Below, piece after piece: positions 1,833-62,051 of a stretch of DNA of 64,000 nucleotides. A program made the position numbers and the translations under genes. Each line of letters opens with the position of its first letter. Positions within the stretch are counted from its first letter, which is position 1. The stretch lies in NCBI GenBank assembly GCA_030386875.1, contig CM059567.1, positions 53,676,020 to 53,740,019 of the forward strand, in the 5' to 3' direction. The notes beneath the pieces were generated by a model, which did not search any database, was not told the origin of the DNA, and saw only the letters and a program-made list of their open reading frames with translations. This DNA is from Morinoia aosen. Lineage: Eukaryota; Arthropoda; Malacostraca; Amphipoda; Talitridae.

Positions 1833-3351
1833 TTCTCGAGTGGGACTCGGGAGACATTCACGAGTGGGGCTCTGGGAGACATTCACGAGTGGGGCTCTGG
1901 GAGACGTTCACGAGTGGGACTCTGGGAGACGTTCACGAGTGGGGCTCTGGGAGACGTTCACGAGTGGGGCTCTGGGAGACGTTCACGAGTGGGGCTCTGG
2001 GAGACGTTCACTAGTGGGGCTCTGGGAGACGTTCACGAGTGGGGCTCTGGGAGACGTTCGCGAGTGAAACTCTGGGAGACGTTCACGAGTGGGACTCTGG
2101 GAGACGTTCACGAGTGGGACTCTGGGAGACGTTCACGAGTGGGACTCTGGGAGACGTTTACGAGTGGGACTGGAAGACGTTCACGAGTGGGACTCTGGGA
2201 GACGTTCACGAGTGGGACTCTGGGAGACGTTCACGTGTGGGGCTCTGGGAGACGTTCACGTGTGGGGCTCTGGGAGACGTTCACGTGTGGGGCTCTGGGA
2301 GACGTTCACGTGTGGGGCTCTGGGAGACGTTCACGTGTGGGGCTCTGGGAGACGTTCACGTGTGGGGCTCTGGGAGAAGTTCACGTGTGGGGCTCTGGGA
2401 GACATTCACGAGTGGGGCTCTGGGAGACATTCACGAGTGGGGCTCTGGGAGACGTTCACGTGTGGGGCTCTGGGAGACGTTCACGTGTGGGGCTCTGGGA
2501 GACGTTCACGAGTGGGGCTCTGGGAGAAGTTCACGTGTGGGGCTCTGGGAGACATTCACGAGTGGGGCTCTGGGAGACATTCACGAGTGGGGCTCTGGGA
2601 GACATTCACGAGTGGGGCTCTGGGAGACATTCACGAGTGGGGCTCTGGGAGACATTCACGAGTGGGGCTCTGGGAGACATTCACGAGTGGGGCTCTGGGA
2701 GACATTCACGAGTGGGGCTCTGGGAGACGTTCACGTGTGGGGCTCTGGGAGACGTTCACGTGTGGGGCTCTGGGAGACGTTCACGTGTGGGGCTCTGGGA
2801 GAAGTTCACGTGTGGGGCTCTGGGAGACATTCACGAGTGGGGCTCTGGGAGACATTCACGAGTGGGGCTCTGGGAGACATTCACGTGTGGGGCTCTGGGA
2901 GACGTTCACGTGTGGGGCTCTGGGAGAAGTTCACGTGTGGGGCTCTGGGAGACGTTCACGTGTGGGGCTCTGGGAGACGTTCACGTGTGGGGCTCTGGGA
3001 GACGTTCACGTGTGGGGCTCTGGGAGACGTTCACGTGTGGGGCTCTGGGAGAAGTTCACGTGTGGGGCTCTGGGAGACGTTCACGTGTGGGGCTCTGGGA
3101 GACGTTCACGTGTGGGGCTCTGGGAGACGTTCACGTGTGGGGCTCTGGGAGACGTTCACGTGTGGGGCTCTGGGAGAAGTTCACGTGTGGGGCTCTGGGA
3201 GACGTTCACGTGTGGGGCTCTGGGAGACGTTCACGTGTGGGGCTCTGGGAGAAGTTCACGTGTGGGGCTCTGGGAGACATTCACGAGTGGGGCTCTGGGA
3301 GACATTCACGAGTGGGGCTCTGGGAGACATTCACGTGTGGGGCTCTGGGAA
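1833..3351. repeat. 25 bp minisatellite, about 61 units, many with CACGTG
   Basis: The unit is 25 bp with core CTCTGGGAGACGTTCACG. Because 25 is not a multiple of 3 and the unit lacks stops, all three + frames stay open for 450-540 codons; these ORFs are artefacts. Units vary at three sites: GACGT/GACAT/GAAGT, ACGAGTGG/ACGTGTGG, and GGGGC/GGGAC. ACGTGTGG units contain the palindromic E-box CACGTG and fill roughly half of the array, in alternating blocks. One unit near 2165 is shortened. The edges, with GGGAC and GACGTTCACGAG, differ from the centre. Confidence 0.95.
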
Positions 3352-14600: not shown

Positions 14601-15589
14601 GTAGCGGAACGCAGATGCTTTGTTCTCTTGAAATGTGAATTGATCATTTGATAATTATGCATTGTACACGTAATCATCGCAGAGCTGGTCCTAAGAAATT
14701 TCGATGCCTAATAAAAGATTTTCAAGCGTCTATTAGTTCTGGTAATTGGGTCCATATTTGCTTATAAGTTTTGAATTTTAAAAGCTTGAAATATTTTTTT
14801 GACCTGAGTCAGCTATACTGATGCTTTTATTAAATTTGAGTCTATGACGCTGATGTCGATTATTTCTTTAGATAATATTATTTAGAGGAAATCGCGAGAA
14901 ATTTAAATATCAGCAAACGATTCATGTTGATTAGCGGCATTTTTTGCATCGATAATTGAATAATAATTTAGCAGGAACTTTCAGTTTTGAGCAAAATGAC
15001 GGGGATAAGGAAATGTCGATGATTTTTTTTTGCCGGCTAATCTTGTCATCACGATGGACCGTGTGTCAGAATGTCGATATAGTAGGTCAATAACCGGCAA
15101 TACCGAAATCGATAACCTCGAGGTGAGCAGTGTTAGGTAGGTGTATTTTATCTTTCTGTTGAAGGTAACTATCTAACATTTTGCCCATGTTTTAGTTTTC
15201 ACTTGCTCTCCAATATGGTTACGTGTTTTGGTTCATATGTCATGAACCGTTTACAGAATTCATTCTTCCTGGGGCTACTGCCGACGCGAGTAAATGAACG
15301 CCATACACTGTACAAAGTACAATAATAATTAATTATTTTTTATTGTGATCCCCTCCGTAGGTAGTCCAAGATTAACCCAGCATGTGGACGAATCGTTTCG
15401 CTGAGGTAGCGGGCACTGAATTAAGTCACTTTCGCTTTTAAAGTGTGGCTGGCCTACACCTCACAACCAACGCTAGGCACGTCCCACAGTCCAACTCGTC
15501 CATACCACTTTTTTGACTATGCCCGGCATCCTTAGAGCTCATTCGCCTCTTGGCGTTGGCGCTACTTCTCGTATCCGAAGATGGACGAT
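11645..15589. other. Long non-coding stretch with minor duplications
   Basis: No gene is recognised. A two-copy ~94 bp tandem duplication lies at about 12743-12925 (shared block TATTTCGTTGTTGCCAACTT). A degenerate array of ~20 bp motifs (TGTCCTACATTCTGAG-like) lies at about 13808-13982. The ORFs of 60-105 codons have no recognisable similarity. Confidence 0.5.
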
Positions 15590-17449
15590 GCTTCCTAGCC
15601 ATCACTGTTGCTTCCTAGCCCTCTGTTGTTTCCTAGCCATCCCTGTTGCTTCCTAGCCATCCCTGTTGCTTCCTAGCCATCCCTGTTGCTTCCTAGCCCT
15701 CTGTTGTTTCCTAGCCATCCCTGTTGCTTCCTAGCCATCCCTGTTGCTTCCTAGCCATCCCTGTTGCTTCCTAGCCATCCCTGTTGCTTCCTAGCCATCC
15801 CTGTTGCTTCCTAGCCATCCCTGTTGCTTCCTAGCCATCCCTGTTGCTTCCTAGCCATCCCTGTTACTTCCTAGCCACCCCTGTTGCTTCCTAGCCACCC
15901 CTGTTGCTTCCTAGCCACCCCTGTTGCTTCCTAGCCACCCCTGTTGCTTCCTAGCCACCCCTGTTGCTTCCTAGCCACCCCTGTTGCTTCCTAGCCACCC
16001 CTGTTGCTTCCTAGCCATCCCTGTTGCTTTCTAGCCATCCCTGTTGCTTTCTAGCCATCCCTGTTGCTTCCTGGCCATCCCTGTTGCTTCCTGGCCATCC
16101 CTGTTGCTTCCTGGCCATCCCTGTTGCTTCCTGGCCATCCCTGTTGCTTCCTGGCCATCCCTGTTGCTTCCTGGCCATCACTGTTGCTTCCTGGCCATCA
16201 CTGTTGCTTTCAGGCCATCCCTGTTGCTTTCAGGCCATCCCTGTTGCTTCCTGGCCATCCCTGTTGCTTCCTGGCCATCCCTGTTGCCTCCTGGCCATCC
16301 CTGTTGCCTCCTGGCCATCCCTGTTGCCTCCTGGCCATCACTGTTGCTTCCTGGCCATCCCTGTTGCTTCCTGGCCATCCCTGTTGCTTCCTGGCCATCC
16401 CTGTTGCTTCCTGGCCATCCCTGTTGCTTCCTGGCCATCCCTGTTGCTTCCTAGCCATCACTGTTGCTTCCTGGCCATCACTGTTGCTTCCAGGCTATCC
16501 CTGTTGCTTCAAGGCCATCCCTGTTGCTTCCAGGCCATCCCTGTTGCTTCCAGGCCATCCCTGTTGCTTTCAGGCCATCCCTGTTGCTTCCTGGCCATCC
16601 CCGTTGCTTCCTGGCCATCCCTGTTGCTTCCTGGCCATCCCTGTTGCTTCCTGGCCATCCCTGTTGCTTCCTGGCCATCACTGTTGCTTCCAGGCCATCC
16701 CTGTTGCTTCCTGGCCATCACTGTTGCTTCCCGGCCATCACTGTTGCTTCCCGGCCATCACTGTTGCTTCCTGGCCATCACTGTTGCTTCCTGGCCATCA
16801 CTGTTGCTTCCTGGCCATCACTGTTGCTTCCAGGCCATCACTGTTGCTTCCTGGCCATCCTTGTTGCTTCCTGGCCATCCTTGTTGCTTCCAGGCCATCC
16901 CTGTTGCTTCCTGGCCATCCCTGTTGCTTCCTGGCCATCCCTGTTGCTTCCTGGCCATCACTGTTGCTTCCTGGCCATCCCTGTTGCTTCCTGGCCATCC
17001 CTGTTGCTTCCTGGCCATCCCTGTTGCTTCCTGGCCATCACTGTTGCTTCCAGGCCATCCCTGTTGCTTTCTGGCCATCCCTGTTGCTTCCTGGCCATCC
17101 CTGTTGCTTCCTGGCCATCCCTGTGGCTTCCTGGCCATCCCTGTTGCTTCTTGGCCATCCCTGTTGCTTCCTGGCCATCACTGTTGCTTCCAGGCCATCC
17201 CTGTTGCTTCCTGGCCATCCCTGTTGCTTCCTGGCCATCCCTGTTGCTTCCTGGCCATCCCTGTTGCTTCCTGGCCATCCCTGTTGCTTCCTGGCCATCC
17301 CTGTTGCTTCCTGGCCATCCCTGTTGCTTGCTGGCCATCCCTGTTGCTTCCTGGCCATCCCTGTTGCTTCCTGGCCATCCCTGTTGCTTCCTGGCCATCC
17401 CTGTTGCTTCCTAGCCATCACTGTTGCTTCCTAGCCATCACTGCTGCTC
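15590..17449. repeat. 20 bp minisatellite, about 93 units, zoned
   Basis: The unit is TTGCTTCCTAGCCATCCCTG or its TGGCC variant. The left edge (15590 to about 16066) and the last two units carry CTAGCC; nearly all the centre carries CTGGCC. Local blocks of identical variants are visible: CACCC units at about 15877-16010, CCTCC units at about 16285-16335, and scattered ATCACTG units. Loss of TAG opens a + frame of 480 codons that is not a gene. The minus-strand ARKQQGWPGSN repeats are equally artefactual. Confidence 0.97.
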
Positions 17450-33653: not shown

Positions 33654-33841
33654 GCCAGGTGGTCTCCTCGGAAATCCTGCAAGCCTCCGAGGCAGGCTGC
33701 CCTATCGAGCTGCACAAGATCCCCATCGAGCAGTGCGACGAGATGTTCGACAAGGAGTGCAAGGGCGGCCGCTACATCCCTTTCAAGCGGGCCGGCTACG
33801 ATCGCAGCACCGGCCAGAGCCCCAACAACCCTCGGGAGCAG
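33654..33841 (+). CDS. Duox: Dual oxidase, internal exon (peroxidase-homology domain, part 1)
   Basis: The exon encodes part of the extracellular peroxidase-homology domain of Duox, an NADPH oxidase of the plasma membrane that releases H2O2. The acceptor is a long pyrimidine tract ending TCTTCCAG at 33653. The exon starts with GC, completing a split Gly codon (phase 1), then reads QVVSSEILQASEAGCPIELH, the stretch around CDEMFDKECKGG, then RYIPFKRAGYDRSTGQSPNN and PREQ. This is the arthropod Duox pattern with its conserved Cys residues. The donor is CAG|GTTTGG, a weak site, ending in phase 0. GC-rich third positions contrast with the AT-rich flanks. The 3' end of the exon is copied twice more into the intron. 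The exon encoding the preceding ...FFG segment was not found. Confidence 0.97.
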
Positions 33842-33982
33842 GTTTGGCATTATAGTCCAGTTGTCTTTATGATTTTTAAAGCCTCAACAACACTCGGGAG
33901 CAGGTACAGCATTTAAGTACAATTTTCCTTGTTTTTCCTAAAACCCCAACGACCCTCGGGTGCAGGTACAGCATTATAGTCA
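33822..33982 (+). repeat. 62 bp x 2.6 tandem duplication of the exon end and its splice donor
   Basis: The last ~20 bp of the exon (CAACAACCCTCGGGAGCAG) plus ~42 bp of intron occur three times with an exact 62 bp period. The three AG|GT junctions are at 33842, 33904 and 33966. The first donor reads GTTTGG; the second and third read GTACAG. Use of donor 2 would add 62 nt (frameshift). Use of donor 3 would include an in-frame TAA at about 33914. Only donor 1 joins correctly to the next exon. Confidence 0.95.
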
Positions 33983-39011: not shown

Positions 39012-40783
39012 TCTCTAAAACATTCACACTAAAGCTTACACTGAAACATTCACACTAAAGCTCACACTAAAACATTCACACTAAAGCTCACACTAAAACA
39101 TTCACACTAAAGCTCACACTGAAACATTCACACTAAAGCTCACACTGAAACATTCACACTAAAGCTCACACTAAAACATTCACACTAAAGCTCACACTAA
39201 AACATTCACACTAAAGCTCACACTAAAACATTCACACTAAAGCTCACACTAAAACATTCACACTAAAGCTCACACTGAAACATTCACACTAAAGCTCACA
39301 CTGAAACATTCACACTAAAGCTCACACTGAAACATTCACACTAAAGCTCACACTAAAACATTCACACTAAAGCTCACACTAAAACATTCACACTAAAGCT
39401 CACACTGAAACATTCACACTAAAGCTCACACTGAAACATTCACACTAAAGCTCACACTGAAACATTCACACTAAAGCTCACACTAAAACATTCACACTAA
39501 AGCTCACACTGAAACATTCACACTAAAGCTCACACTAAAACATTCACACTAAAGCTCACACTGAAACATTCACACTAAAGCTCACACTGAAACATTCACA
39601 CTAAAGCTCACACTGAAACATTCACACTGCAGCTCACACTGAAACATTCACACTGCAGCTCACACTAAAACATTCACACTAAAGCTCACACTGAAACATT
39701 CACACTAAAGCTCACACTGAAACATTCACACTAAAGCTCACACTGAAACATTCACACTAAAGCTCACACTAAAACATTCACGCTAAAGCTCACACTAAAA
39801 CATTCACACTAAAGCTCACACTAAAACATTCACACTAAAGCTCACACTAAAACATTCACACTAAAGCTCACACTAAAACATTCACACTAAAGCTCACACT
39901 AAAACATTCACACTAAAGCTCACACTGAAACATTCACACTAAAGCTCACACTAAAACATTCACACTAAAGCTCACACTAAAACATTCACACTAAAGCTCA
40001 CACTGAAACATTCACACTAAAGCTCACACTAAAACATTCACACTAAAGCTCACACTAAAACATTCACACTAAAGCTCACACTGAAACATTCACACTAAAG
40101 CTCACACTAAAACATTCACACTAAAGCTCACACTGAAACATTCACACTAAAGCTCACACTAAAACATTCACACTGAAGCTCACACTGAAACATTCACACT
40201 AAAGCTCACACTGAAACATTCACACTAAAGCTCACACTAAGACATTCACACTAAAGCTCACACTGAAACATTCACACTAAAGCTCACACTGAAACATTCA
40301 CACTAAAGCTCACACTAAAACATTCACACTAAAGCTCACACTAAAACATTCACACTAAAGCTCACACTAAAACATTCACACTAAAGCTCACACTGAAACA
40401 TTCACACTAAAGCTCACACTAAAACATTCACACTAAAGCTCACACTAAAACATTCACACTAAAGCTCACACCGAAACATTCACACTAAAGCTCACACTGA
40501 AACATTCACACTAAAGCTCACACTAAAACATTCACACTAAAGCTCACACTAAAACATTCACACTAAAGCTCACACTAAAACATTCACACTAAAGCTCACA
40601 CTAAAACATTCACACTAAAGCTCACACTAAAACATTCACACTAAAGCTCACACTAAAACATTCACACTAAAGCTCACACTGAAACATTCACACTAAAGCT
40701 CACACTGAAACATTCACACTAAAGCTCACACTTAAACATTCACACTAAAGCTCACACTAAAACATTCACACTAAAGCTCACAC
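39012..40783. repeat. 26 bp minisatellite, about 68 units
   Basis: The unit is ACATTCACACTAAAGCTCAC followed by ACTRAA. It is remarkably uniform: nearly all variation is one A/G position (ACTAAAAC or ACTGAAAC), with rare CTGCAG-type and CTGAAG units near 39630-39660 and 40170. Each unit is itself a diverged dimer of TCACACT half-units. The array lies wholly inside the Duox intron. Confidence 0.97.
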
Positions 40784-44326: not shown

Positions 44327-44534
44327 TTGAACTACGTGACGTCTTGGATCGACGGCTCCTTTGTGTACAGCACCAGCGAGGCTCGCCTCAACATGCTCAG
44401 GTCCTTCAAAAATGGCACCTTCCTCACCGATGAAAATGATCCTCAAATGCCCCCTCGCAATACCAGACGAATTCCTATGGAGAATAATCCTTCCCCTCAC
44501 GTTCTCAAAATCCTCCCGCCTGAGAGAATGCTGC
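44327..44534 (+). CDS. Duox: Dual oxidase, internal exon (peroxidase-homology domain, part 2)
   Basis: Starts in phase 0 after TTTTCCAG and reads LNYVTSWIDGSFVYSTSEAR, then LNMLRSFKNGTFLTDENDP, a basic stretch with NTRRIPMENNPSPH, and ends LKILPPERML plus one base. The block TSWIDGSFVYSTSEA is diagnostic for Duox-type peroxidase domains; ordinary heme peroxidases have a related Y-G-S motif. NGT is a possible N-glycosylation site. The donor is C|GTGAGT, a strong site with no duplications after it, so the exon ends in phase 1. The intron before it spans 33842-44326 (10,485 bp). The upstream intron has no stop for 20 or so codons in this frame, which looks fortuitous. Confidence 0.97.
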
Positions 44535-44605
44535 GTGAGTACCTTACGTGATGTTGAATGATGTTGAGTGAATTCATATTGTGAAGGCCTCCATGTGTCT
44601 CTTCT

Positions 44606-44835
44606 CCTTTTGTTTCCTATGATCTTTCTCCGTGTTCTTCTTATTTTTTCGTCCCTGATTTTTCCTTAATATTCCTCTTCTCCTTTTGTTTCCTACAATC
44701 TTTCTTTCATGTTCTTCTTATTATTTTTGTACCACCGGATTTTTCCTCCATGTTCCTCTTCTTCTTTTGTTTCCCATGATATTTCCTCCATGCACCTCTT
44801 CTTATTTTTTTTCCCATGATCCTTCCCGATTTCTT
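44606..44835. repeat. ~78 bp pyrimidine-rich tandem repeat, 3 degenerate units
   Basis: Each unit begins TTCTYCTTTTGTTTCC and contains TTCTTCTTATT and TTTTTCC. It lies 70 bp after the second Duox exon. Minus-strand Lys/Glu-rich ORFs here are shadows of the pyrimidine bias. Confidence 0.75.
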
Positions 44836-46502: not shown

Positions 46503-46669
46503 TGATGGGGGACGAAAGAACGAACCAAAACCCCGCTCACCTGGCGTTCGGCATCTTGTTCTTCCGCTGGCACAACACGCTGGCGCAGCGCATCCAGGCG
46601 CGGCACCCTGACTGGAGGGACGAAGATGTCTTCCAGAGAGCCAGGCGGCACGTCATAGCGCACCTGCAG
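46503..46669 (+). CDS. Duox: Dual oxidase, internal exon (peroxidase-homology domain, part 3)
   Basis: The acceptor is CATCTCAG. TG completes a Leu codon with the C of the previous exon, giving ERML|L MGDERTNQNPAHLAFGIL, then FFRWHNTLAQRIQARHPDW, a DEDVFQRARR block, and HVIAHLQ. RTN aligns with Arg239-Thr-Asn of myeloperoxidase, so the catalytic Arg is kept. The heme-linking Glu242 and Met243 positions are Gln and Asn, as in arthropod Duox. FFRWHN and the W(R)DEDVFQRAR block are family hallmarks. The donor CAG|GTGAGA is in phase 0. The next expected segment (after ...HLQ, a YLP motif) was not found in the window. The exon tail is repeated downstream. Confidence 0.98.
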
Positions 46670-46972
46670 GTGAGAACCTGCCTTTACTAACGCGTCATAG
46701 CACTCCTTCATATCAAAAACTGCCTTGACTCAAATGTCATAGCGCACCTGCAGGTGAGAATCTGCCTTTACTAACGCGTCATAGCACTCCTTCATATCAA
46801 AAACTGCCTTGACTCAAATGTCATAGCACACCTGTAGGTAAGGAATGCCTTTACTTACGCGTCATAGCGCACCTGCAGATAAGGAACTGCCTTCACCAAT
46901 GCGTCATAGCACTCCTACATATCAGAAACTGTCATTACTCATATGTCATGGCTCACCTGCAGTCACCTGAGG
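46640..46972 (+). repeat. 84 bp (2 x 42) tandem duplication of the exon end and its splice donor
   Basis: GTCATAGCGCACCTGCAG|GTGAGA of the exon end recurs. Donor copies are at 46670 (GTGAGA), 46754 (GTGAGA) and 46838 (GTAAGG). A fourth at 46879 is mutated to ATAAGG, and a late GTAAGG is at 46972. The period is 84 bp, itself two diverged ~42 bp halves (CTGCCTTTACTAACGCGTCA and CTGCCTTGACTCAAATGTCA). Using donor 2 adds 84 nt in frame but meets TAA at codon 7 of the extension. Confidence 0.95.
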
Positions 46973-49263
46973 TAAGGTTTCAAAAATGAGTAATTCGTAT
47001 CAAAATGAGTAATTCAGAACTGTTTTAGCGTTATGATGCAGCAGAAGGCTAAATAAAAATATTGTATTAATTTTGGTGACTCGTTTCCTCTTTGGCTGAA
47101 ACTCGCATGAGAGCTGAAGTAGCTAAATGGATTAGCGGCCACACTATCAGACATGTTTAACTCCTTGTATCAATCAAAGTTTTTATGTACGATGGGCGAA
47201 CAGAAAGACTGACGTATCGACGCGTATTATATATCATTTGAATTACTTTTATGGGATGATTATTGCACTCAAAAGCAATTTGACGCCCTCGCAATCGCGA
47301 ATCCGTTATCTCAATTACGATTGATAGCAACTCCGTAATCACCATTAAGATTAGAAGCTCTAATGGCAGACGCTCTTCAGCAGCTCATGTTTTCACTGAG
47401 GTAGCTCATAGATGCCCTGCCAGCCGAATGTTGGGTGGCCTCCGGTGTCTCGTGTCTTCGAACTACATTAGGTACTGCTAATGACACAGAGACTCAATGA
47501 AGCTCCAAAGCAGAACTGTGGTCTAGATAATATAAAGAGTAAAATAAAGATTGAAGCAATTAGTCTCTCCTCGCGATATTCACAAATACCTCTTGACGAT
47601 GAAGTTGAAAATTGCTAAGGTGTATGTTTGTCGTTTTATAAGTCTGATAAGCATTTCTAGTTTTGGCAAAATACAAATGACTATTCAAACCCATTATTCA
47701 AGCTGTTTTTATGTAGTCTTTTATTGATCACGCGCCTCACTTCGTGTTCTGCCATCTGCATGCTCTCAGCTTGAACAGAAATATAATAAATTGAAACGTT
47801 TGAAATATATTTTAACAGAATTAAAAATCATGTTTTTGAAAATATTGAACAACAAATCTTCTTTATAAACCGCCTGTGCGTCACAGTGCAATAAGAACAA
47901 TTTCATTTTATTGGGGTTATAGTGTGCTTTTTGCTCATCTTTGAAACAGGTCTCGTCTCAAAGTCCAAAGAATGCGATCTCTTGACTTTGTTTGAAATTC
48001 TATTTATGTATATCTGCTACATTGACTATATTTCGACTGCACATTTTCACACATGTCATCTTCCTTGTGAGTTATCGAGTTATCATGATTCTGGTGTGAG
48101 GGAAGATAACCTAAACATGTATTTGAAAATTTTTAAACATATTTTATGCAGTTGATAGAGGTGATTTCATCCAAATGATTCGTGAACATTTTATTACTGA
48201 AGGACTTCTGCCTTTGTTATACTAACTCTGAGGAGACTTCAACCATGCTCAGAACAAAGCTCATCTCAAGACAACAGTCGATTAGTGGTGAAGCTGTACC
48301 TCATTCCCAGCAGATGAGGCATAAATAATATTCTAATGTGTTTTTATATCATCTAAGCCGCACTGAAGAACATAACCGTGGGCTCCTCATGATTTTATGA
48401 TCTGCAATCACTTTTTATTTTTTTTCGCTCGCGGCTATCCGCCTTAGGTGGATATTGAAACGTTCAGGACGCTGTTCAGTGACCCCGCGCTGAGTGCACT
48501 GTTATTGTGCGTCTTCCTGAGCCCGAGTGCACTTCAGCTAACTGGCTGCAGTGCTTGGAAATATTTAAACAATTTTAAACAATTTATTTACCATAAGTGA
48601 TACAGCAATAGATTGTATCTTAAGTCTGGTACAATGGAGATCGCACCAAATTACCGCGAGTTGAGCCGAACAACTAATTTCCGGTGGACGATTGTCCGCA
48701 AATTCTTATTCTTCGACTGTCCAAAGTGCATATATTTTGCGATTCGGTCGCAGACCCCATGCGTAGGGAGAGTAGAAAAAAACTCATATCCGTGCTTTAA
48801 TGTTGATTTTATCTACACCCTTCAACATTATTATTATTTACGAAGAGTTTTGCGAGTACGGTGAAGGTTACTGGGGTTCACTTTTTGAGTAAGATCTATT
48901 TGATATTAATAACATGTGCAAGCAGCTAACATTAGTCACTCTTGCCTTGCTTGCAAGTGTTGCTTTCAATATAATGATTCAAATGTTTTTACGGCAAACT
49001 GAAAATGAGAATTTAAACTCCAATTTAAATTTCATTCACTTCTCAATTTCATTGTCCCAGCCTGCTTTTATCTGCCAAAATTTCGCTTAACTTTGATACG
49101 CTATCGAACATTTCTGAGGAAACGCTGAATTTCCACAGTATATATTTCCGCTGTGATTGCAGCGTTGAAATCGCTACCAAGAATGATCTCAATGACAGGC
49201 GTTTGAATGAACTATCATTTCTTTAAATTATTTGATGGTAGCTGTGCTTGAAATGAATTATCT
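46973..49263. other. Non-coding stretch (probably Duox intron)
   Basis: No exon is firmly recognised. A weak candidate after CGCCTTAG at about 48449 reads VDIETFRTLFSDPALSALLL but runs to a stop without a clear donor. Confidence 0.4.
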
Positions 49264-50618
49264 CGTTCACCTTGTTTCCGCTCACCTTGTTTCCGCTCAC
49301 CTTGTTTCTGCTCACCTTATTTCCGCTCACCTTGTTTCCGCTCACTTTGTTTCCGCTCACCTTGTTTCCGCTCACCTTGTTTCCGCTCACCTTGTTTCCG
49401 CTCACCTTGTTTCCGCTCGCCTTGTTTCCGCTCGCCTTGTTTCCGCTCACCTTGTTTCCGCTCGCCTTGTTTTCGCTCACCTTGTTTCCGCTCACCTTGT
49501 TTCCGCTCACCTTGTTTCCGCTCACCTTGTTTCCGCTCACCTTGTTTCCGCTCACCTTGTTTCCGCTCACCTTGTTTCCGCTCACCTTGTTTCCGCTCAC
49601 CTTGTTTCCGTTCACCTTGTTTCCGCTCGCCTTGTTTCCGCTCGCCTTGTTTTCGCTCACCTTGTTTCCGCTCACCTTGTTTCCGCTCACCTTGTTTCCG
49701 CTCACCTTGTTTCCGCTCACCTTGTTTCCGCTCACCTTGTTTCCGCTCGCCTTGTTTCCGCTCGCCTTGTTTCCGCTCACCTTGTTTCCGCTCACCTTGT
49801 TTTCGCTCGCCTTGTTTCCGCTCACCTTGTTTCCGCTCACCTTGTTTCCGCTCACCTTGTTTCCGCTCACCTTATTTCCGCTCACCACCTTGTTTCCACT
49901 CACCACCTTGTTTCCGCTCACCACCTTGTTTCCGCTCACCACCTTGTTTCCGCTCACCACCTTGTTTCCGCTTACCACCTTGTTTCCGCTTACCACCTTG
50001 TTTCCGCTCACCACCTTGTTTCCGCTCACCACCTTGTTTCCGCTCACCACCTTGTTTCCGCTCACCACCTTGTTTCCGCTCACCACCTTGTTTCCGCTCA
50101 CCACCTTGTTTCCGCTCACCACCTTGTTTCCGCTCACCACCTTGTTTCCGCTCACCACCTTGTTTCCGCTCACCAATTTGTTTCCGCTCACCACCTTGTT
50201 TCCGCTCACCACCTTGTTTCCGCTCACCACCTTGTTTCCGCTCACCACCTTGTTTCCGCTCACCACCTTGTTTCCGCTCACCACCTTGTTTCCGCTCACC
50301 ACCTTGTTTCCGCTCACCACCTTGTTTCCGCTCACCACCTTGTTTCCGCTCACCACCTTGTTTCCGCTCACCACCTTGTTTCCGCTCACCACCTTGTTTC
50401 CGCTCACCACCTTGTTTCCGCTCACCACCTTGTTTCCGCTCACCACCTTGTTTCCGCTCACCACCTTGTTTCCGCTCACCACCTTGTTTCCGCTCACCAC
50501 CTTGTTTCCGCTCACCACCTTGTTTCCGCTCACCACCTTGTTTCCGCTCACCACCTTGTTTCCGCTCACCACCTTGTTTGCGCTCACCACCTTGTTTGCG
50601 CTCACCACCTTGTTTCCG
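49264..50618. repeat. Two-phase 15 bp then 18 bp minisatellite, about 41 + 41 units
   Basis: 49264 to about 49880 is a pure 15 bp array (CTCACCTTGTTTCCG). From there to 50618 the unit becomes 18 bp (CTCACCACCTTGTTTCCG), that is, the same unit with CACC duplicated to CACCACC. The switch happens once and is clean. Variants in the 15 bp zone (CTCGCC, TTTTCG) form repeating blocks (49400-49480, 49620-49660, 49740-49810), showing multi-unit duplication. All frames are open on both strands because units are multiples of 3 and stop-free; the 460-480 codon ORFs are artefacts. Confidence 0.97.
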
Positions 50619-51092
50619 CCCACATGGTGTCGTGACCGTCGGCAAATTTTGAGACGGACTCACGCACATCCTCCAAGCAATACGACTGCGTCTCAGTTGT
50701 ATTCTTCTACCTCACTATCGATGTAGCATCGACAATTCCGCAATTTTTATATGAGAAAGATGAATAATACCAACATCCTTGAAATAATACCTTACAGCCA
50801 TTCTGTTGTACCGATTGTAATTAAGGGTCCTGTTGATGCCTTTATTGGCAACGAAAACATTGCTGCTTTGTTCTCAGATTCATTGCACCGGGCTTTATGT
50901 CTCGACCACCCGTGATATTGTAAAATTATATAGTTCGCTTATTGTTTGATGTCCATGTACGTATGGTCCGCTTCTGTCTTAGTTCTGAGTGTGTTGTTGT
51001 TGCTCCGACACCAAACGTAACCGCAGTGGAGTGGCCGAATTGTGTGGGCTTCTATTATTATTGCCCGCCCAGTTCAAGTCACCTTACCTCAA
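50619..51092. other. Non-coding stretch, no recognised feature
   Basis: Single-copy AT-rich DNA. Confidence 0.45.
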
Positions 51093-60800: not shown

Positions 60801-62051
60801 AGCATCGTAACTATTCAGTCCTACTCTCCATGTTCATACTCTCCATGTCCCTACTCTCCAGGTCCCTACTCTCCATGTTCCTACTCTCCATGTCCCTACT
60901 CTCCATGTTCCTACTCTCCATGTCCCTTCTCTCCATGTCCCTACTCTCCATGTTCCTACTCTCCATGTCCCTACTCTCCATGTCCCTTCTCTCCATGTCC
61001 CTACTCTCCAGGTCCCTACTCTCCATGTCCCTACTCTCCAGGTCCCTACTCTCCATGTTCTTACTCTCCATGTTCCTACTCTCCAGGTCCCTACTCTCCA
61101 GGTCCCTACTCTCCATGTTCCTACTCTCCATGTTCCTACTCTCCATGTCCCTACTCTCCATGTCCCTTCTCTCCATGTCCCTTCTCTCCATGTCCCTTCT
61201 CTCCATGTCCCTTCTCTCCATGTCCCTTCTCTCCATGTCCCTACTCTCCATGTTCCTACTCTCCATGTTCCTACTCTCCATGTTCCTACTCTCCATGTCC
61301 CTACTCTCCATGTCCCTACTCTCCATGTCCCTACTTTCTATGTTCCTACTTTCTATGTTCCTACTCTCCATGTTCCTACTCTCCATGTTCCTACTCTCCA
61401 TGTTCCTACTCTCCATGTCCCTTCTCTCCATGTCCCTACTCTCCAGGTCCCTACTTTCTATGTTCCTACTTTCTATGTTCCTACTCTCCATGTCCCTACT
61501 CTCCATGTCCCTACTCTCCATGTCCCTACTCTCCATGTCCCTACTCTCCATGTCCCTACTCTCCATGTCCCTACTCTCCATGTCCCTACTCTCCATGTCC
61601 CTACTCTCCATGTCCCTACTCTCCATGTCCCTACTCTCCATGTCCCTACTCTCCATGTTCCTACTCTCCATGTCCCTACTCTCCATGTCCCTACTCTCCA
61701 TGTCCCTACTCTCCATGTCCCTACTCTCCATGTCCCTACTCTCCATGTCCCTACTCTCCATGTCCCTACTCTCCATGTCCCTACTTTCCATGTCCCTACT
61801 CTCCATGTCCATACTCTCCATGTCCATACTCTTAATGTCCCTACTCTCTATGCATGTCCATACTCTCCATGTCCCTACTCTCCATGCATGTCCCTACTCT
61901 CCATGTCCATACTCTTAATGTCCCTACTCTCTATGCATGTCCTTACTCTCCATGTCCCTACTCTCCATGCATGTCCCTACTCTCCATGTTCCTACTCTCC
62001 ATGCATGGCCCTACTCTCCACTGGAGAGCAGAGCACCGTAACTATCCAGTC
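60801..62051. repeat. 15 bp minisatellite (about 80 units) bracketed by 20 bp direct repeats
   Basis: The array (60821-62021) has unit CTACTCTCCATGTCC with CCATGTTC, CCAGGTCC, CCTTCTC and TTTCTATG variants. Left flank AGCATCGTAACTATTCAGTC (60801-60820) and right flank AGCACCGTAACTATCCAGTC (62032-62051) match at 18 of 20. The right end has an 83 bp higher-order unit containing ATGCATG and CTTAATG, and closes with CTCTCCACTGGAGAG, a perfect 6 bp stem. The centre (about 61490-61790) is nearly homogeneous. The 339-362 codon ORFs (MESRD and LLSMS repeats) are artefacts. Confidence 0.95.

Follow-up and report, generated by a model that had tools for sequence, protein, structure and literature searches.

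The window, by which we mean the whole 64-kb stretch of DNA analysed, contains three visible exons (A, B and C) of a predicted dual oxidase (Duox) gene. Exon C, whose translated product is MGDERTNQNPAHLAFGILFFRWHNTLAQRIQARHPDWRDEDVFQRARRHVIAHLQ, matches the Pfam model PF03098 with 62 bits (C12:53722521-53722691), and in the PDB it is closest to two dual oxidase 1 chains, 7d3e (E 4.6e-13) and 6wxr (E 4.3e-10); judged by this peroxidase-homology exon, the host gene reads as a dual oxidase. The exon phases are compatible, with A closing in phase 0 and the first codon of C taking one base from B. Past the window, at C12:53765576, there is a further peroxidase exon, and another exon of the same Duox gene (L063) is without an array. 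Minisatellites span the donors of exons A and C. The features are as follows; donor weights, for 46670 to 46972 and for exon A, are scores from a weight matrix.

33654-33841, + strand: Duox exon A, 2 + 186 nt, ending ...SPNNPREQ (translation and frame)
33820-33980, + strand: minisatellite across the exon A donor, 2.6 copies of 62 bp
44327-44534, + strand: Duox exon B, ending ...PPERML + 1 nt, with donor GTGAGT at 44535
44588-44826, + strand: unrelated minisatellite (TRF), starting about 54 bp past the exon B donor
46503-46669, + strand: exon C, Duox heme-peroxidase exon, 2 + 165 nt, ending ...HVIAHLQ
46651-46962, + strand: donor-spanning minisatellite at exon C (TRF and anchors), 8 units of 42 bp
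46670-46675, + strand: first donor, GTGAGA after CTGCAG, weight 6.8
46754-46759, + strand: copied donor, GTGAGA after CTGCAG, weight 6.8
46838-46843, + strand: copied donor, GTAAGG after CTGTAG, weight 5.7
46879-46884, + strand: dead donor copy, ATAAGG after CTGCAG
46972-46977, + strand: late donor of the last unit, GTAAGG, weight 6.5

The exon C array begins 18-19 bases inside the 3' end of the exon, and its unit includes those bases together with the 5' splice site. TRF scored it at 375 for a period of 84 bp and at 260 for a period of 42 bp (threshold 40), and placed its end at 46962. Eight GTCATRG anchors, at 46652, 46694, 46736, 46778, 46820, 46861, 46903 and 46945, follow one another at spacings of 42, 42, 42, 42, 41, 42 and 42 bases. 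A preliminary description of this DNA, which had located and spelt all five donor sites correctly, had called the array an 84-bp tandem duplication. The 84-bp period is real, with a dimer stretch at 46652-46893, but the basic unit is 42 bp long and the longer period is a dimer of two types, donor-bearing (A) and donor-less (B). The units run A B A B A A B A, the donor of the sixth being dead, and the donor-less type carries CTTCAT ATCAAA at the place of the donor. Units 1 and 3 are 98% identical and units 2 and 4 are 100% identical, while units 1 and 2 share 71%. GT is absent at the homologous place in five of the seven later units, namely the three donor-less ones, the one with ATAAGG and the last, in which the donor is displaced by 9 bp and is preceded by 9 bp, TCACCTGAG, that echo the TCACCTGCAG of the unit. 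The first copy in the array is the real exon end with its donor, and all further copies are intronic.

Because alternate units resemble each other so much more closely than neighbours do, the array probably has a two-stage history. An early 42-bp duplication across the exon C boundary would have been followed by divergence into donor-bearing and donor-less types, as one copy lost its donor, and later by duplication of the 84-bp pair. Slippage or unequal exchange may have made the array, and in situ tandem duplication is its most likely origin.

The copied donors bear directly on how the gene could be spliced. Use of the donor at 46754 would add 28 codons, which read VRTCLY and then an in-frame TAA as the seventh, exactly the early stop that had been predicted from the letters. 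At exon A, extension to either copied donor (33904 or 33966, both GTACAG) would shift the frame. Since the copies would thus yield a stop at exon C and a frame shift at exon A, splicing presumably takes place at the outermost donor, which is 46670 at exon C. The same reasoning is less safe at exon A, where the first donor (GTTTGG at 33842) is a weak one, with a weight of 0.3 against 0.9 for the copies. Duplication in situ may be tolerated because the outermost site stays available for splicing, and the extra donors would then be mostly ballast, as well as a source from which cryptic exon ends may form. Alternatively, they could be functional, their alternative use serving to tune Duox splicing, with the in-frame stop giving a decay-targeted or truncated form. 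The similar weights of the donors at 46670, 46754 and 46972 would suit such a role, whereas the loss of GT from most later units looks like decay, and on these sequence features we regard regulated use as very unlikely.

The exon A unit comprises 22 exon bases and the donor within its 62 bp, so that at both exons A and C exon and intron bases of one boundary lie within the unit, the arrangement termed a mirage in lancelets. The two duplications had been described as independent, and this proved correct, in that the 62-bp unit of exon A and the 42/84-bp unit of exon C show no likeness beyond chance (their local alignment score was reached by 353 of 500 shuffles). Exon B has no repeat spanning its donor, and no copy was found of the acceptors of exons A, B and C; within these three exons, Duox duplicates donors only. 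Two of the three visible exons therefore do carry donor-spanning arrays, as first reported. The accompanying argument that this would be unexpected by chance is weak, since at the rate of 9/96 per donor in the exon sample described below, two or more of three corresponds to p = 0.025 for a comparison chosen afterwards.

A second copy of the Duox locus lies 1.56 Mb upstream on the same chromosome and strand, and a pair of matches at C12:52151096 and 52165993 corresponds to that at 53709659 and 53722519. Identity between the two copies is 98.8% across the 3.6 kb surrounding exon C, and over the exon and its array 795 of 800 bases are equal, with 5 differences and no gap. Around exon A they are 98% identical over 401 bp and of equal length. 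Array length is accordingly the same at both exons in the two copies, be they haplotypes or duplicates. The distance from exon A to exon C is unequal (12,860 vs 14,897, about 2 kb), so something else varies within that stretch. A search of the genome (1.99 Gb, 29 contigs) with the 293-bp intronic array, using a method that passes over simple repeats and very frequent words, returned two matches, one in the window and the other at C12:52166163. As the array is kept in the second copy and matches only there, it is real and home-grown. An introner or other mobile element was rejected, the array being found in that search at two copies of one locus only and not at many unrelated loci.

Other peroxidase matches also form same-chromosome pairs (C6 at 44.9 and 47.26 Mb, C6 at 63.44 and 63.59 Mb, and C20 at 64.9 and 65.36 Mb). 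Such pairs lie on the same strand, 0.1-2.4 Mb apart, with equal or near-equal scores, identity figures being available for the Duox pair only, and they are either recent segmental duplicates or retained haplotypes. Retained haplotypes would lend some colour to an assembly artefact, or a collapsed or expanded repeat, as the source of the array. Against this, the exon C array is equally long in both Duox copies, without a gap and with only those few differences, which makes an artefact barely credible.

To place the Duox arrays in their genomic setting, we used a sample of 127 exons found with Pfam models. These were 24 peroxidase exons (of 93 listed matches, and with L063 of the Duox gene among them), 53 myosin heads (of 79), 32 kinases (of 135) and 18 kinesins (of 126). 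From the first 60 peroxidase and kinase loci, 29 entered the sample (23 peroxidase exons and 6 kinase exons). Omitted were the near-identical second copies L010, L012, L019, L025 and L030, together with L004 and L005, and 24 of the 30 kinase loci, the kinase choice being made by how much of the domain the match spanned and by the length of the open frame. The next 80 loci yielded 80 exons, with L064 and L069 unused and L070 counted as three. A junction was scored as spanned when the 24 bases around it found at least 19 matches at a shift of 15-330 bp; a site close enough to the match edge to be scored was present for 96 donors and 108 acceptors. At L022 and L023 the scored site lies past the first donor, and by eye the first donors are copied as well. 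For comparison we took 986 intron points 500-1260 bp away, which come from 29 loci and are not independent. Array edges were counted separately, from merged TRF arrays (period at least 10, score at least 50) in 40-bp bins around exon ends. The distant bins of this second test lay at 360-1360 bp, nearly all of them from the 29 long loci, and its p-values are exploratory, as the bins were set after the arrays had been seen and Pfam match ends only approximate exon ends.

Spanning duplications were found at 9/96 donors, 5/108 acceptors, none of the 127 exon midpoints and 114/986 distant intron points, the last with any duplication in 16 of the 29 loci. Boundaries of both types, 5' and 3', are thus hit in the sampled genome. 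Donors showed no excess over the distant intron points (p = 0.62) and no significant difference from acceptors (Fisher p = 0.27), and acceptors lay below the distant points (p = 0.03). The preliminary description had named genome-wide parity between donors and random intronic points as the result that would refute it, and parity is what the 127-exon sample gave. We read this parity in the light of deep introns having fewer arrays, some of which are very long.

Array edges gave a different picture. Between -40 and +40 of the exon 3' end, 17 arrays start, against 4.5 expected from the pooled distant rate (p = 5e-6) or 3.3 from the own-side rate (p = 9e-8). Around the exon 5' start, 12 arrays end, against 4.5 pooled (p = 0.002) or 5.6 own-side, by which the excess is modest (p = 0.012). 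The distant bins held 10 starts in 764 and 17 ends in 771, and the window itself, with 26 arrays in 64 kb, gives an expectation of 4.1. When only arrays scoring at least 90 were counted, 14 donor-side and 10 acceptor-side edges remained, against 2.8 pooled, or 2.0 and 3.6 own-side. The first 109 exons contributed 16 edges on the donor side and 10 on the acceptor side; for these exons, the two edge bins held 16 starts and the five bins 120-320 bp downstream held 6 (p = 2e-5). A later check on the 18 kinesin exons added 1 edge at donors and 2 at acceptors, with about 0.6 expected on either side, counts that alone are too few to confirm the excess. The use of own-side distant rates widens the contrast between donors and acceptors, and the edge counts themselves, 17 and 12, do not differ significantly (p = 0.46). 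Taken together, these counts indicate a boundary effect on both sides of exons, stronger at donors though not significantly so.

These results bear on two further explanations. According to the first, minisatellites are so abundant in this genome that nothing can be read into two spanned donors. Tandem arrays do cover 20.4% of the window, and the distant points, level with donors and above acceptors, are what such a background would give. Per base pair, however, array edges are about 2- to 5-fold denser at exon edges than in the flanks, depending on the side and the distant rate used, and we therefore consider background as the whole explanation rather doubtful. The second holds that 5' splice sites themselves start tandem growth, through R-loops or co-transcriptional repair. 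The larger excess of starts on the donor side speaks for such seeding, as does the base composition described below. The crowding of acceptor edges and the parity of spanned donors with distant intron points speak against it, as does the skew of the Duox arrays themselves, and donor-specific seeding appears unlikely. The originally suggested shared mechanism at exon-intron boundaries is supported in so far as array edges crowd exon edges across the 127 exons; a restriction to donors is not, since acceptors are copied too.

Donor-edge arrays have a mean G-over-C skew of +0.33 (n = 17), compared with -0.01 for other arrays (n = 58, p = 0.004). Likewise, the skew 10-60 bp past the exon is +0.33 where there is an array (17 exons) and +0.05 where there is none (110 exons, p = 0.003). 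Acceptor-edge arrays have a mean skew of -0.21 (n = 12), and the stretch before acceptors does not differ in skew with or without arrays (p = 0.2). An R-loop cause would be expected to predict the same sign on both sides. Moreover, despite the mean G skew at donor edges, the two Duox arrays are both skewed towards C (-0.14 and -0.24), so that the R-loop-linked repair invoked for this gene is unsupported. We take the skew to be mainly the composition of the local intron end, copied along with the unit, without this explaining away the difference at donors.

The spanned donors outside Duox belong to myosins (L090, 42 bp x 10.3, and L123, 37 bp x 3.9), peroxidases (L023, 61 bp x 5.7, and L022, 37 bp x 5.6), kinases (L103, L104, L106 and L120) and a kinesin (L148); the spanned acceptors are those of L008, L089, L096, L124 and L136. 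In L090 (C11:27529510-27530392), the myosin exon end YFYLNQ, followed by GTTAGT, recurs in 42-bp units reading YFYLNQVSGLITSM, in an open frame of 563 residues. In L023 (C23:8349131) and L022 (C14:36867857), conserved tails (ITYGEWLPTVLG; part of HEYLPLVVG) have been copied into the intron with the donor. L148 (C11:22590242-22590893) has repeats at both edges: a 31-bp array ends 21 bp inside the start of the match, and the exon tail and donor are copied at a 133-bp shift. Unit length is divisible by three at five of the nine donors (L090, L106, L123, L103 and L022), too few to conclude that there is a bias. Long arrays also occur in the window, where five of the 26 separate arrays exceed 1.1 kb (1833-3350, 15589-17448, 39015-40783, 49268-50623 and 60820-62003). 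Elsewhere, the genome has 115 matches to the cuticle family Chitin_bind_4, a marker of arthropods, by which it reads as an arthropod genome. Nine of these matches lie in one 1077-residue open frame (C13:65235382-65238279) that reads as a many-domain cuticle protein.

We conclude that the exon C array is very probably a mirage-type minisatellite, which arose by local tandem duplication of a unit straddling the exon-intron boundary, is tolerated, and belongs to a class raised at exon edges. Array birth or survival would be raised at both exon edges in this genome, and mutation bias, longer survival or selection are candidate causes. Survival could be longer beside exons because deletions that remove an array would often hit the exon. 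A broader and distinctly tentative extension is that throughout the genome tandem repeats arise, or are kept, chiefly at exon edges. Introns would then lengthen outward from their splice sites and spare donors and acceptors would keep arising, and some units could become coding insertions, for example the 42-bp unit of L090 with its long open frame. With arthropod mirages in several families and crowded exon edges, the origin of splice-site duplication becomes countable in one genome, where it can also be tested whether such duplication feeds new exon ends and new introns.

Boundary-spanning tandem repeats at 5' and 3' ends, named 'mirages', are described for amphioxus globins (BMC Evol Biol 2010; PMC3087553), with Adh3 mirages cited there as an earlier report, and repeats of 60 and 108 bp over splice sites are described for PGBD5 (PMC3902484). 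The genes named are Adh3, the globins BflGb6 and BflGb9, PGBD5 and TnC (PMC3087553, PMC3902484). RT-PCR suggests normal splicing, haplotypes differ in copy number, and intron gain from mirages has been proposed (PMC3087553). Like the arrays reported here, amphioxus mirages are minisatellite-like duplications spanning exon-intron boundaries of both types; their units are 10-160 bp long and many, not all, copies retain the AG/GT signals. They differ in coming from lancelets, whereas the present cases come from an arthropod, in four unrelated gene families, and are accompanied by a count of the intron background. Human internal tandem repeats in segmental duplications (PMC2812944) likewise involve minisatellite expansion that alters gene structure, but the part of that account used here does not describe exon ends and splice sites copied into an intron. 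The Rogers model of AG/GT proto-splice-site duplication (cited in PMC3087553) also rests on a tandem copy of a segment with splice signals; it is a model of intron gain, while here the boundary of an existing intron is copied and no new intron is shown. In Daphnia pulex, introns are reported to be much poorer than other regions in repeats whose units exceed 8 bp (PMC3152781), so abundant intronic minisatellites are not general among arthropods; the word 'splice' is absent from the main text of that study. Among the titles and abstract openings listed for the open literature, with subscription journals mostly outside, we recognised no arthropod report of boundary-spanning repeats. The structure itself has thus already been described in lancelets, from which all the mirage reports found come, and it is the occurrence in an arthropod that the present analysis adds.
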